Virus record (IMG/VR): IMGVR_UViG_3300044811_000086
Location: 1-24,389 of that record
Origin: a virus
Length of the DNA stretch: 24,389 bases
Strand: one strand, 5' to 3'
Below the pieces are notes generated by a model. It saw nothing but the letters and a program-made list of their open reading frames with translations, made no database searches and was not told the DNA's origin. Positions 6,350-12,277 of the stretch are shown one piece after another (position 1 is the stretch's first letter; each line of letters begins with the position of its first letter). The position numbers were made by a program, and so were the translations under genes.

Positions 6350-6658
6350 TTATGAAGATAATGTGCAGCGCAGGTTGAATACCCACGTGTCGTTTTCAAT
6401 GCGAGGAACTTCGGCGAATTTATAACCAACCGATGCGTTGAGTGCTAAAGCTGAATCATAAATAGGAGGCCGATAGATGAACGAGGCTGAGTACCCGTCT
6501 TGTTCGATAGATGCAAACGCTTCCCGTCCACAGACAAAAATGTTGTAGATTGTCGCGCCAAGCAAACTAGCATTTGGACTTGTAGATCCAATACTAGAGA
6601 GCAAGAAACGGACATTAGAAGCCGTTCCCCATTCAGAATCCAGAGTGGACTGTTGATT
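6350..6658 (-). CDS. Major capsid protein exon 4 (102 codons plus stop)
   Basis: It encodes NQQSTLDSEWGTASNVRF through the C-terminus NLRCTLSS. AAT at 6658 follows the terminal G of the 609-nt intron. The stop TAA at 6350-6352 lies just before the Shine-Dalgarno of the next virion gene. Confidence 0.88.
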   Translation of the reverse strand, partial: NQQSTLDSEWGTASNVRFLLSSIGSTSPNASLLGATIYNIFVCGREAFASIEQDGYSASFIYRPPIYDSALALNASVGYKFAEVPRIENDTWVFNLRCTLSS

Positions 6659-8722
6659 CAATCTGTTACTTTTATGACCAACTATTCGGAAATTCCGAAG
6701 CGTTGGCGGGGACTTTCTCTACTTATCCCTCTCTATGTTTCCATAGAGTTCAGAGCACCGCATCTTTGATAATTTAATGATATGACTTTCTTCTCCACAA
6801 TTCCTACACCATGATTCTTCGGTGGTCGGAATGCCAATGTAATCATGTCCCAAATTATCAGAGTCTTCTCGCTTGCTACGTTCAGACTGAATGAATTTAT
6901 CACAACATTCGTCACAAAAATATAATCCCCATCCAAAAAGCTCTGAAAGCTTTTCTATACAGGATTCTTTATTGCACTTATCACAATGCCATTTATTCAT
7001 TCTTGTCCCTTGTTGTCGCCGTCAGGTTTTTTCCCATAAAAATAAAACGAATCCATGATGCTAAAAACCGCATCCATTTGATCGAAAGTAAAGTTCTGAC
7101 CCTGCATAAATGTCTTCAGGTCGTTAAGGATTTTATCAAATCCTGGAGCTTCCATTATGCTTTTTTGCCTAAACCAACGTTCGCCAGATCCATTTATTTT
7201 TAAAAACATATACCTACGCTGCGAGTTCCAAGTCTATCAGAGAAGATTTTACTACCCCAATCGCTTTAGGGTAATTCCACTTCTGTATGAAGCCAGATAC
7301 GTTCTCTAGCTGACCGATCAAATCGGTATGGCCGAGGCCGAAGTAGGCATCGCGTACAGGAGCTGTTCCAAATCTATCTTCGCCTTCAACCCCTGTTAAG
7401 AAGCTGTAGGCATTATTTCCACGAAGAGTCCTAACAACAATATCCACGTCGGAACGTGTTATCTCTGTTGGGTTATCTCCGTTCGTACCACCCGTGCAAT
7501 TGATAAAGCTAGCAGTCGATGCCAGCATATCGCGCATGAGTTGGTCTTCCGTTTGACGAAGAGAAACGCCTAAGCGTTGGGCTGCTTCGTTCAAAACCGT
7601 TCTGTTACTTTCATGACCAAGAAAATAATTTACTTGGCGGGAAAGGCTCTTCGGCCCCTCCTCTCACGCTTTCGTCGTGAGATCAGACTATCGCATCTGC
7701 TTACGCAGCCAACACACTTAGTCGTTCAGCCTGTACATTAATATCACCTTCATTTATTATTGTATAACCATAAACGTAAGGAGTTTTATGGCTAAAATAG
7801 TTAAATTTTCTACCAGACAAACAACAGAGCAACTTGCCTATTTGGCAGGCATTGTTGATGGAGAAGGATGCTTTTACTTTGGAAAAGTTAAGCAAGGTAG
7901 ATACGGAAATGGAACGCAATGGCATTGCAAACTTGCTGTTACAAGTTGCGATAAATGCCTTACAGATTGGCTTAATGATTTGTTTGGAGGAACTAAGGAG
8001 CAAAGATATCGTTATATCAGCAAGCGAGCATTTGAACGACCCATTCATCGTTGGGACGCCTCTGGCTTGATGTTGAATTATCTTTTGCCTAAAATTCTTC
8101 CTTATCTTATTATTAAGCGCAAGCAATGCGAAACAATGATCGAGATACGAAAAACCTATGCAAATATAGGAAGTAAACGGCTGCCAGACGAAGTTGTCTT
8201 TCGTCGAGAAGAGTTTCTTCTTATTATGCGTAATCTTAATTCTCGTTATCATAACCATCCGTTAAAGGTTCATTAATACTTGGCCCTTGTTACCCTCGTC
8301 TTTACGTTAGGGACTCCAAGTCAATCAGTGTCGGTTTAAAGATCCCATTTTAAATTTAGGATCTTGGTTCTGGAGCGTTACTTGCTCATTGAGCAGTATG
8401 TAGGTCATTACTCCAAAACTCACTACGGCACCTACGCGGCGAATTCAAATAATTTTTTACCGTAGAAATCCATCTGCGCATCAATGTTAATCGCCGTCAG
8501 CGTCTGAGGAGGGGGAGTAATGCCACTGTTTCCTAAAGGAACAGGGGCTGTTGCCAGAGGATTGTATCGTCGCATTCTAAGCGTCGTACCGCCATTTCTA
8601 GGCATAGCTTTCAAGTCAGCTGGTATCTTGTGTATCATATAATGTACAGGAACCGATAACAGCTTAAACGAGAAAGACTGCTGAATTGGAGCAGGTAGAC
8701 CGCCTGTTGTCGTAATCGACAT
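6350..8722 (-). CDS. Major capsid protein, N4-gp56 family, interrupted (four exons)
   Basis: Four minus-strand pieces (8722-8459, 8405-8358, 7597-7268, 6658-6350) join in frame to a 316-residue protein. Recognisable N4-gp56-family segments are LRMRRYNPLATAPVPLGNSG (exon 1), TYILLNEQVTLQNQDP (exon 2), VLNEAAQRLGVSLRQTEDQL and NCTGGTNGDNPTEITRSDVD (exon 3), and STLDSEWGTASNVRFLLSS and IEQDGYSASFIYRPP (exon 4). The joins restore the family sequence exactly (FYG/TYILL, NQDP/VLNEAA, NYP/NQQSTL). The product forms the capsid shell. ATG at 8722 has AGGA 8 nt upstream. Unspliced, translation would stop after about 96 residues, so removal of all three interruptions is needed. Family assignment is from recalled family patterns. 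Confidence 0.9.
6719..7000 (-). CDS. Intron 2-encoded Cys-rich (zinc-ribbon-like) protein, 93 aa
   Basis: The protein has CxxC pairs at residues 6/9, 29/32 and 65/68 (HCDKC, FCDEC, WCRNC), consistent with two small zinc knuckles. It shows no LAGLIDADG, GIY-YIG or HNH nuclease signature. Its ATG overlaps the stop of the upstream 70-residue ORF. Its 3' end (SELYGNIERDK, then TAG) covers the candidate P7 strands of the intron core, so coding and ribozyme constraints overlap here, as in many intron ORFs. The function is unknown. It could be a remnant or replacement of a homing gene, or simply cargo. Confidence 0.6.
   Translation of the reverse strand: MNKWHCDKCNKESCIEKLSELFGWGLYFCDECCDKFIQSERSKREDSDNLGHDYIGIPTTEESWCRNCGEESHIIKLSKMRCSELYGNIERDK
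6997..7209 (-). CDS. Intron 2-encoded small protein, 70 aa
   Basis: This 70-residue soluble helical protein starts MFLKINGSGERWFRQKSIME. An internal ATG at 7155 (MEAPGFDKILNDLKTF) may be the real start, because that region is the well-folded-looking part. AGGT lies only 3 nt before the first ATG. The stop TGA overlaps the ATG of the 93-residue Cys-rich ORF, so the pair is translationally coupled within the intron. I do not recognise the family, and there is no nuclease motif. Confidence 0.5.
   Translation of the reverse strand: MFLKINGSGERWFRQKSIMEAPGFDKILNDLKTFMQGQNFTFDQMDAVFSIMDSFYFYGKKPDGDNKGQE
7268..7597 (-). CDS. Major capsid protein exon 3 (110 codons)
   Basis: It encodes VLNEAAQRLG through VSGFIQKWNYP, the central core of the capsid protein. 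It starts with GTT directly after the terminal G of the 760-nt intron. It ends TACCCT, which pairs with GGGGTA at 7253-7258 of the next intron. Read-through into that intron hits a stop at 7214. Confidence 0.88.
7598..8357 (-). ncRNA. Group I intron 1 in the major capsid gene (760 nt)
   Basis: Protein continuity (NQDP/VLNEAA) fixes both ends. P1 is exon GATCCT (8358-8363) with guide GGGATC (8341-8346), with U-G at the splice site. P3 is ACACT (8327-8331) with AGTGT (7714-7718). P7 is GACTA (7719-7723) with TAGTC (7686-7690). P8 is CTGC-GTAA-GCAG (7697-7708). A P9-like hairpin CTCACG/CGTGAG follows, and the terminal G is at 7598. The order P1-P3-P4/P6-P7-P3'-P8-P7' is that of group I ribozymes. 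The antisense endonuclease gene sits in the peripheral loop before P7, leaving the core intact. Confidence 0.9.
7788..8276 (+). CDS. LAGLIDADG homing endonuclease, antisense within intron 1
   Basis: The 162-residue product has a single LAGLIDADG motif, LAGIVDGEG, at residues 19-27 with its acidic catalytic residue. It is followed by the usual CFYFGKVKQ strand and, near the middle, LTDWLNDLFGG. One motif in this length implies a homodimer that cleaves the intronless capsid gene and drives intron spread. AAGGAG lies 5 nt before ATG at 7788, and TATAAC about 20 nt upstream could be a -10 box. The gene is read on the strand opposite to the intron and capsid gene, so it needs its own promoter and is not made from the spliced transcript. 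Confidence 0.88.
   Translation: MAKIVKFSTRQTTEQLAYLAGIVDGEGCFYFGKVKQGRYGNGTQWHCKLAVTSCDKCLTDWLNDLFGGTKEQRYRYISKRAFERPIHRWDASGLMLNYLLPKILPYLIIKRKQCETMIEIRKTYANIGSKRLPDEVVFRREEFLLIMRNLNSRYHNHPLKVH
8358..8405 (-). CDS. Major capsid protein exon 2 (16 codons)
   Basis: This 48-nt micro-exon encodes TYILLNEQVTLQNQDP, a conserved capsid segment. It lies between the 53-nt interruption and the 760-nt intron. It ends GATCCT, which pairs with the internal guide GGGATC at 8341-8346. Confidence 0.85.
8406..8458 (-). other. 53-nt core-less intron-like insertion in the major capsid gene
   Basis: Between exon 1 (FYG) and exon 2 (TYILL) lie 53 nt with in-frame stops and a frame change. The first base follows a T, and the last base is G, as in group I introns. 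Exon CTACGGT (8459-8465) pairs over 7 bp with GCCGTAG (8423-8429), with U-G at the junction. Nothing resembling P3-P8 fits. The stretch GAATTCGCCGCGTAGGT resembles GAACTCGCAGCGTAGGT near the 5' end of intron 2, so it may be a deleted intron. How it is removed or bypassed is unknown. Confidence 0.7.
8459..8722 (-). CDS. Major capsid protein exon 1 (88 codons)
   Basis: It encodes MSITTTGGLPAPIQQSFSFK through IDAQMDFYG, the N-terminal arm of the capsid protein. The exon ends CTACGGT, which is fully complementary (final pair U-G) to GCCGTAG at 8423-8429 inside the 53-nt interruption that follows. Confidence 0.8.
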
Positions 8723-11416: not shown

Positions 11417-11553
11417 TCATTGACTGCATTTCTTGCGTGTTTAAATGGATGTGTACGTGTGAAGCAGCCAATCTTGGGAATCTCCTGCAAGGAGTTGCAA
11501 TATGCGGATTAGCCATAATGTCATTGATATGGTTTTTGGAGATTAAGAAATGA
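11413..11553 (+). CDS. Tiny membrane protein, 46 aa
   Basis: The sequence starts MIIDCISCVFKWMCTC and continues with a hydrophobic helix (LQGVAICGLAIMSLIWFLEI) before a basic end, so it is a one-pass membrane peptide with four Cys in the first 16 residues. It overlaps the genes on both sides by 4 nt (ATGA). The first 17 nt equal those of the next gene at 11550, so it may have arisen by duplication of a gene start. The function is unknown. Confidence 0.55.
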   Translation: MIIDCISCVFKWMCTCEAANLGNLLQGVAICGLAIMSLIWFLEIKK

Positions 11554-12277
11554 TCATTGACTGCATCTCCGATCTCCATGGCCATTATCCCAAATTAGAA
11601 TGCGGCGACTTACTGATAGTGGCGGGGGATGTAGATCCTCCCAATGAACATTGGATGGATCATTCATTTATAAACTGGCTAGAGAAACAACCATATAAGA
11701 AAAAGATTTTTGTAGCAGGAAACCACGACAATCGACAAGTATCTCATCCGTGGAACGCCTTTGACTATGAATATCTCTGCGACTCCGGCACTGAATTCGA
11801 ATACTGGGAAGAAGAACCTCATCCCGCTAGTACAGATTTCGTGAGCATAGATGCCTTGTGTCACACAAAAAAAAGCTCAAAATCTGGGGATCGCCGTGGA
11901 CAAAATCCTTCAAAGGCATGAATCCTCATTGCAAGGCATTTACCTTGGATACCGAAGAGAAGCTTGCTGAGAAGTGGGCATTGATTCCAAATGACACAGA
12001 CATACTTGTGACGCACAGCCCTCCCTATGGAATACGGGATGCTGTGAAGAATTATTCCAGCGGGAAAATAGAATGCTACGGCAGCAAGTCGCTGCAAATG
12101 GAGTTATTTCTTCGTTTGAATCCAAAACTAACGGTCTTCGGACATATTCACGAAGGATATGGAATTGAACCGCCAGGAGGGATTGTAGAAAGATGCGTCA
12201 ACGCCTCCCACGTCAACGCCTCCCACGTCAACGAGCATTATGAGCCGGTTAATAAACCAATCAGGATTATCTTATGA
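11550..12277 (+). CDS. Calcineurin-like metallophosphoesterase, split by a -1 frameshift
   Basis: Two frames together make a complete metallophosphoesterase. Frame one (11550-11921) gives SDLHGHYP (DxH), VAGDVDPP (GDxxD-type) and FVAGNHDNRQ (GNHD). Frame two (to 12277) gives LKIWGSPWTKSF, ILVTHSPPYG and VFGHIHEGYG (GHxH). All five metal-ligand motifs are present, and order and spacing match MPPED-type phosphoesterases. The switch needs a -1 shift within eight A at 11867-11874, where A AAA AAA is in frame zero. It could be programmed slippage, a natural mutation or a sequencing error. Read unshifted, the first frame stops at 11921. GTG at 11858 is a possible restart for frame two. Confidence 0.75.
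12196..12233 (+). repeat. 15-bp tandem repeat near the phosphoesterase 3' end
   Basis: CGTCAACGCCTCCCA occurs at 12196-12210 and 12211-12225, followed by a partial copy CGTCAACG. It adds the peptide VNASHVNASHVN, where related proteins would have one copy, so it is an in-frame duplication. Confidence 0.85.

Follow-up and report, generated by a model that had tools for sequence, protein, structure and literature searches.

A putative core-free satellite intron in a phage capsid gene, probably spliced by the ribozyme of a neighbouring group I intron

Organization of the interrupted capsid gene

The stretch analysed here (the window) is a virus record of 24,389 bases (IMG/VR record IMGVR_UViG_3300044811_000086), which contains tailed-phage head genes encoding a portal, a large terminase and a head protein. 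The major head (capsid) protein gene lies on the minus strand and carries three interruptions. The subject of this report is one of them, an insert of 53 nucleotides (nt), which is probably a group I-type satellite intron that has no ribozyme and is spliced by the ribozyme of the neighbouring intron. The gene is arranged as follows.

8459-8722, minus strand: capsid exon 1 (MSITTTGG...MDFYG), from tblastn against relatives; matches PHROG 1357, major head protein (E = 1.5e-5)
8406-8458, minus strand: 53-nt putative coreless satellite intron, with an in-frame stop after KKLFEFAA and a terminal G
8358-8405, minus strand: small exon of 48 nt, TYILLNEQVTLQNQDP, in which the reading frame picks up again at 8405; from tblastn against relatives
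7598-8357, minus strand: neighbour group I intron of 760 nt, the presumed source of the catalytic core
7268-7597, minus strand: capsid exon 3, from a profile match and tblastn against relatives
6659-7267, minus strand: second full group I intron of the capsid gene, 609 nt, by direct reading with exon borders from relatives
6350-6658, minus strand: capsid exon 4 and stop codon, from tblastn against relatives

The insert (8458-8406) breaks the frame, and the in-frame stop that follows KKLFEFAA ends at 8432. Relatives without the insert join FYG to TYILL without a gap, and in several of them residues 1-36 of that stretch are 100% identical. The coordinates, the stop codon and the FYG/TYILL junction that the original prediction, made from this DNA alone, had given for the 53-nt interruption are correct. 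The intron that it had placed 48 nt downstream does lie at that distance and starts at 8357.

Read-through into the insert or into an intron often ends in -AA, -LAA or -VA before the stop, which resembles an ssrA-type degradation signal on the product of an unspliced mRNA. In the window, such ends are KKLFEFAA in the insert (8432-8458, minus strand) and ...LELAA in the second intron (7214-7267, minus strand), and others occur at the related loci L034, L038, L123, L163, L171, L174 and L177. Read-through terminates in alanine in 27 of 47 inserts, a count that is partly confounded by a GCTGC-stop-GCAG hairpin.

Splice-site elements of the insert

The insert contains guide sequences for both of its flanking exons.

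8465-8459, minus strand: last 7 nt of exon 1, CTACGGT, the 5' strand of helix P1a
8423-8429, minus strand: 3' strand of P1a, GCCGTAG, the guide for the 5' exon with a U-G pair at the cut, by direct reading
8430-8435, minus strand: P10 strand, GTAGGT, which pairs with ACCTAC of the 3' exon (8405-8400) over 6 base pairs (bp)

In P1, CTACGGT (8465-8459) pairs with GCCGTAG (8429-8423) over 7 bp, the last of which is U-G; the seventh pair tracks the exon base in most relatives. The P10 strand is located directly 5' of GCCGTAG and its partner is the first six bases of the 3' exon, and the guide as a whole complements 13 nt across the ligated exons with a single G-U at the junction. As read from the sequence, this arrangement of P1 and P10 guides matches that of group I introns. 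The 7-bp P1 ending in U-G and the final G of the insert had been predicted and are seen on direct reading; P10 and a further helix, Pz, go beyond that earlier description. The predicted absence of a catalytic core likewise holds, with approximately 18 nt left after P1 in the window and no Rfam match. The 3' end of the insert, AGTAATG, was also considered as a remnant of the GTAACAG ends of the neighbour introns, and this idea was dropped because the resemblance is not common to relatives.

Recurrence of the insert among relatives

A protein search identified at least 561 relatives encoding the capsid, and the sample that it gave, which had not been picked for inserts, is the unselected sample below. 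Ten distinct genes of this sample contain an insert of 30-65 nt at the identical junction. Together with DNA pattern scans, at least 48 distinct coreless inserts of 30-65 nt were found at the one FYG/TYILL codon junction in independent viral contigs, which excludes an assembly collapse in one contig. Most counts below refer to 47 analysed inserts and include related sequences.

The inserts occur in all three length classes with respect to the reading frame (14, 14 and 19 cases), and 45 of 47 contain an in-frame stop. Their first bases, the position of the stop and the loop are free to vary; what is conserved is P1, P10, the terminal G and a further helix. P1 is present in all 10 unselected coreless inserts, and the terminal G in 47/47. 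Nearly all inserts have a P10, which covaries with the 3' exon (ACCT/AGGT, ACAT/ATGT, ACGT/ACGT, ACTT/AAGT and CAAT/GTTG), with a mean of 4.8 bp for the insert's own exon versus 2.3 bp when exons are swapped. A group I core of P3-P8 with the guanosine site in P7 is absent from these inserts of 30-65 nt in total. In the unselected sample, the FYG codons end in TACGGT in 11 of 11 genes with an insert versus 10 of 74 without one.

A composite scan for P1a, P10, Pz and P1b over 1.74 megabases (Mb) gave 68 matches, all but one at the FYG site, and 3 matches in null sequence; no second location of such elements was found among the fetched loci in this 1.74-Mb scan. Full group I introns of 706-749 nt with the same P1 occupy this very codon junction at loci L080, L171, L153, L175 and L187, and are possible ancestors of the satellites.

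A guide helix directed at the neighbour intron

The 3' half of the insert (after GCCGTA) forms the further helix, Pz, of 8-13 bp, with the exon that precedes the next group I intron.

8410-8419, minus strand: Pz 5' strand, GTTTTGGAGT, the guide towards the neighbour intron
8367-8376, minus strand: Pz 3' strand, GCTCCAGAAC, located in the small exon, with its end 9 nt short of the neighbour's 5' splice site

For the insert of the window, an unconstrained RNA fold places P1, Pz and the P1 of the neighbour side by side (z = -2.6), and P1a and Pz are both present in the unconstrained minimum free energy structure in 44 of 47 cases. The search for Pz was free to place it anywhere in the small exon (26 to 86 nt), and in 47/47 the top-scoring helix stops 6-11 nt (mode 8) short of the next intron's 5' splice site. 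The P1 of the neighbour has a length of eight nucleotides, and Pz therefore abuts it. The neighbours occupy three sites, after NEQV (25 cases), QDP/DPV (18) and GVSL (4); the 5' splice sites of the neighbours in L034, L139, L190 and L219 were set by hand to these conserved positions.

The mean guide-to-exon helix score is 21.9 for own pairs, versus 13.0 for pairs swapped within a site and 12.2 for shuffled guides. The pairs of Pz change together position by position, with up to four Watson-Crick types at one position. In an alignment of 21 sequences made without fitting to the structure, Pz shows 90.7% pairing and a covariation of 0.564, compared with 0.157 for shuffled partners (0 of 500 reaching the observed value) and at most 0.16 for a slid partner.

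Pz also follows the neighbour when the neighbour changes position. Some inserts, such as those of L209 and L227, have near-identical 5' halves and guides that differ according to the position of the neighbour. Many switches of the neighbour label are seen on the tree of exon 1 (QV, 20 changes, of which at least 10 are forced), and they include sister pairs such as L251 (NEQV) and L303 (GVSL), with a support of 100/99. In L177, where an extra intron is located between the satellite and its partner, the guide nevertheless fits the exon that precedes the QDP intron.

The neighbour intron and the dependence on it

In the window, the P1 of the neighbour is AAGATCCT/...GGGATCTT (3' strand at 8346-8339; the slash marks the cut), and its P7 strands are GACTA (7723-7719) and TAGTC (7690-7686). 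By alignment, the neighbour introns have all the elements of a group I intron (P1, P3-P9), within 203 nt in L034, and they fold with P3-P9. Both P7 strands are present in all 43 neighbours for which a 3' end was found; six failed only the strict 3'-end test. An open reading frame (ORF) lies within the neighbour intron of the window.

7788-8276, plus strand: homing endonuclease-like ORF, antisense to the capsid gene; PHROG 5046, 'HNH endonuclease' (E = 4.6e-22)

This ORF carries the PHROG label HNH, yet contains a LAGLIDADG-like motif, LAYLAGIVDGEG.

Comparison of the sequences indicates that a complete-core neighbour is obligatory for the insert. Among the unselected genes, 10/10 with a coreless insert have a neighbour intron no more than 34 codons away, versus 13/73 without an insert (p = 4.7e-7). 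Over all loci, the neighbour is present in 48/48 with a coreless insert versus the same 13/73 (p = 5e-22), and one more locus is cut by the contig end. Neighbours without a satellite exist, and the dependence is therefore one-way. The full-core introns at the FYG site have no neighbour in 4 of 5 cases.

The second full intron of the window (6659-7267) has the P1 TACCCT/...GGGGTA and the 3' end GTAACAGATTG. The Rfam models miss phage group I introns both in the window (6659-8357, minus strand) and in L121 (3960-4320), and automated annotation would therefore call the capsid gene broken.

Weighing of alternative explanations

The original prediction had left several explanations side by side, among them translational bypassing in the style of T4 gene 60, in which the ribosome would leave at GGT, skip the 53 nt and resume at ACC with the aid of the P1a and Pz hairpins. 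The size of the insert, near 50 nt, the location of the take-off codon within a hairpin and an in-frame GGA codon 6 nt before the resume codon in the window agree with such a process. However, bypassing in T4 gene 60 requires matched GGA codons (PMC5009743), and the matched-codon test failed in 47/47: the codon before the resume codon is never GGN (ATG 18, TTG 13, AAG 6, TAG 6, ACG 2, GTG 1 and GAG 1). In addition, the stop does not directly follow the take-off codon; it is the ninth insert codon in the window and varies in position among relatives. Bypassing also leaves unexplained the covariation of P10, the constant final G, the full group I introns with the same P1 at the same site and the tracking of the neighbour's position by Pz, and is very unlikely. 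The missing core and the full introns at the same site would agree with an assembly collapse or with the remnant of a deleted intron in a dead gene. These options are extremely improbable in view of the recurrence of the insert under constraint: independent contigs contain at least 48 distinct inserts, the helices covary and the capsid gene is intact apart from its interruptions.

In another rival account, the insert is a group I substrate that a different group I ribozyme or a host factor splices in trans, and Pz does no more than fold or shield the pre-mRNA by the neighbour. P1, P10 and the final G require only some group I core, and further introns are present on the contigs (6659-7267 in the window). 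Yet coreless inserts are confined to genes with a neighbour within 34 codons, their guides are retargeted to the 5' splice site of that very neighbour, and the position of Pz would be left unexplained; this account is unlikely. Splicing by the core of the downstream intron, also among the options first proposed, is the only one of them that fits the comparative data, namely the recurrence, the P1, P10 and terminal G, the neighbour-tracking Pz and the absence of any insert without a neighbour.

Several points weigh against splicing by the neighbour. The P1 TACGGT/...GCCGTA with U-G at the cut is present in all of the at least 48 distinct inserts, a count that is partly circular at the pattern-selected loci because the DNA pattern scans searched for P1, and P1 is to be judged on the unselected set only. 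Spliced, insert-free copies of the window sequence were searched for in viral contigs and none was found. The Rfam group I model misses even complete neighbours (that of the window and a compact one, at gathering and permissive thresholds), and the completeness of the core therefore rests on the alignment. Finally, no P9.0-like pairing of the 3' splice site was identified, although no systematic search for it was made; Pz may take the role of P9.0 or P9.2.

Proposed mechanism

The insert has no core of its own and carries a guide to the exon by the neighbouring intron, and it is therefore probably cut out of the RNA by the ribozyme of that neighbour. The satellite keeps the parts of a substrate, that is, P1 with U-G at the 5' cut, the P10 guide and the terminal G, and in place of a core it has a short guide, which pairs as Pz with the exon immediately before the neighbour. 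Pz, which adjoins both P1 helices, probably recruits P1a beside the core of the neighbour and presents the 3' splice site of the satellite in its loop. The core would then bind P1a in place of its own P1, a guanosine would cut after FYG, and the freed exon, held by P10, would attack after the last G of the satellite, which would join FYG to TYILL. The neighbour would also remove itself through its own P1. The location, P1, P10, the terminal G, Pz with its retargeting and the constant presence of a neighbour with a complete core are established by comparison of sequences, whereas removal by splicing, catalysis by the neighbour's core, the sequence in which the two events take place and an origin of the satellite from a full intron at the same site are inferred from it.

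Comparison with known systems

Engineered trans-excision-splicing ribozymes and group I spliceozymes use P1, P10, P9.0 or P9.2 and guanosine (PMC4094466), and in them a group I core excises an internal segment of a substrate with its own splice sites and joins the flanks. The satellite appears to share this organization, with P1 and P10 sites on the substrate and the core elsewhere. However, those ribozymes were designed in the laboratory and contain the guide themselves, whereas the satellite has its guides in the insert; the core would come from a natural, complete intron next to it in the same transcript, with recruitment through Pz. The trans-spliced (split) group I introns of organelles, such as that of Prasinoderma rnl (PMC3873408), also involve a splice event with non-contiguous parts, but there one core is split over two transcripts and reassembled, whereas here one intron is coreless and the neighbour's core is complete alone.

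Ordinary phage group I introns, including those with a full core at the FYG site (L080 and L171), resemble the satellite in their target, in P1 and P10, in the final G and in an in-frame stop early on, and differ in that they possess their own core, in place of which the satellite has Pz. In the tandem phage group I introns with exon skipping of Twort orf142 and the SIOphi polymerase (PMC11878797), the splice sites of two introns also interact around a small exon; however, both introns have cores and the small exon is lost. In the satellite system, the length of most small exons (26 or 50 nt) is not divisible by three, and the capsid requires all of them. Like the satellite, the T4 gene 60 bypass involves hairpins and a short gap within a phage gene that is left untranslated, but the satellite inserts bear group I hallmarks.

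Other features of the window and its relatives

A metallophosphoesterase-like gene (11550-12277, plus strand) shows an apparent frameshift split near an A run at approximately 11866 (ORFs 11550-11921 and 11858-12277). The nearest cellular record of the capsid (81%) is L309 (JANQJL010000105.1), a contig of a metagenome-assembled genome of Simkaniaceae (Chlamydiota) in which the insert is absent, which gives a hint of the host. No close isolated phage relative was found in the phage collection: a nucleotide search was empty, and the one protein match was at 31%.

Significance

Known group I introns are either self-contained ribozymes or a single ribozyme divided into pieces. A search of the open-access literature revealed no natural precedent for a core-free intron served by the ribozyme of a neighbour. 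Phages probably harbour a natural class of core-free satellite introns that depend on the ribozyme of a neighbouring intron and have many times been redirected to it by means of a covarying guide helix, with a single ribozyme serving for the removal of two introns. If true, this would be a natural dependence of one intron on another, in which a core-free intron hands its splicing to its neighbour. It would also be a natural counterpart of the engineered trans-excision ribozymes, with approximately 48 tuned guides to learn from, and would formally resemble a step proposed for the origin of the spliceosome, in which introns that had lost their cores came to rely on a shared catalyst.
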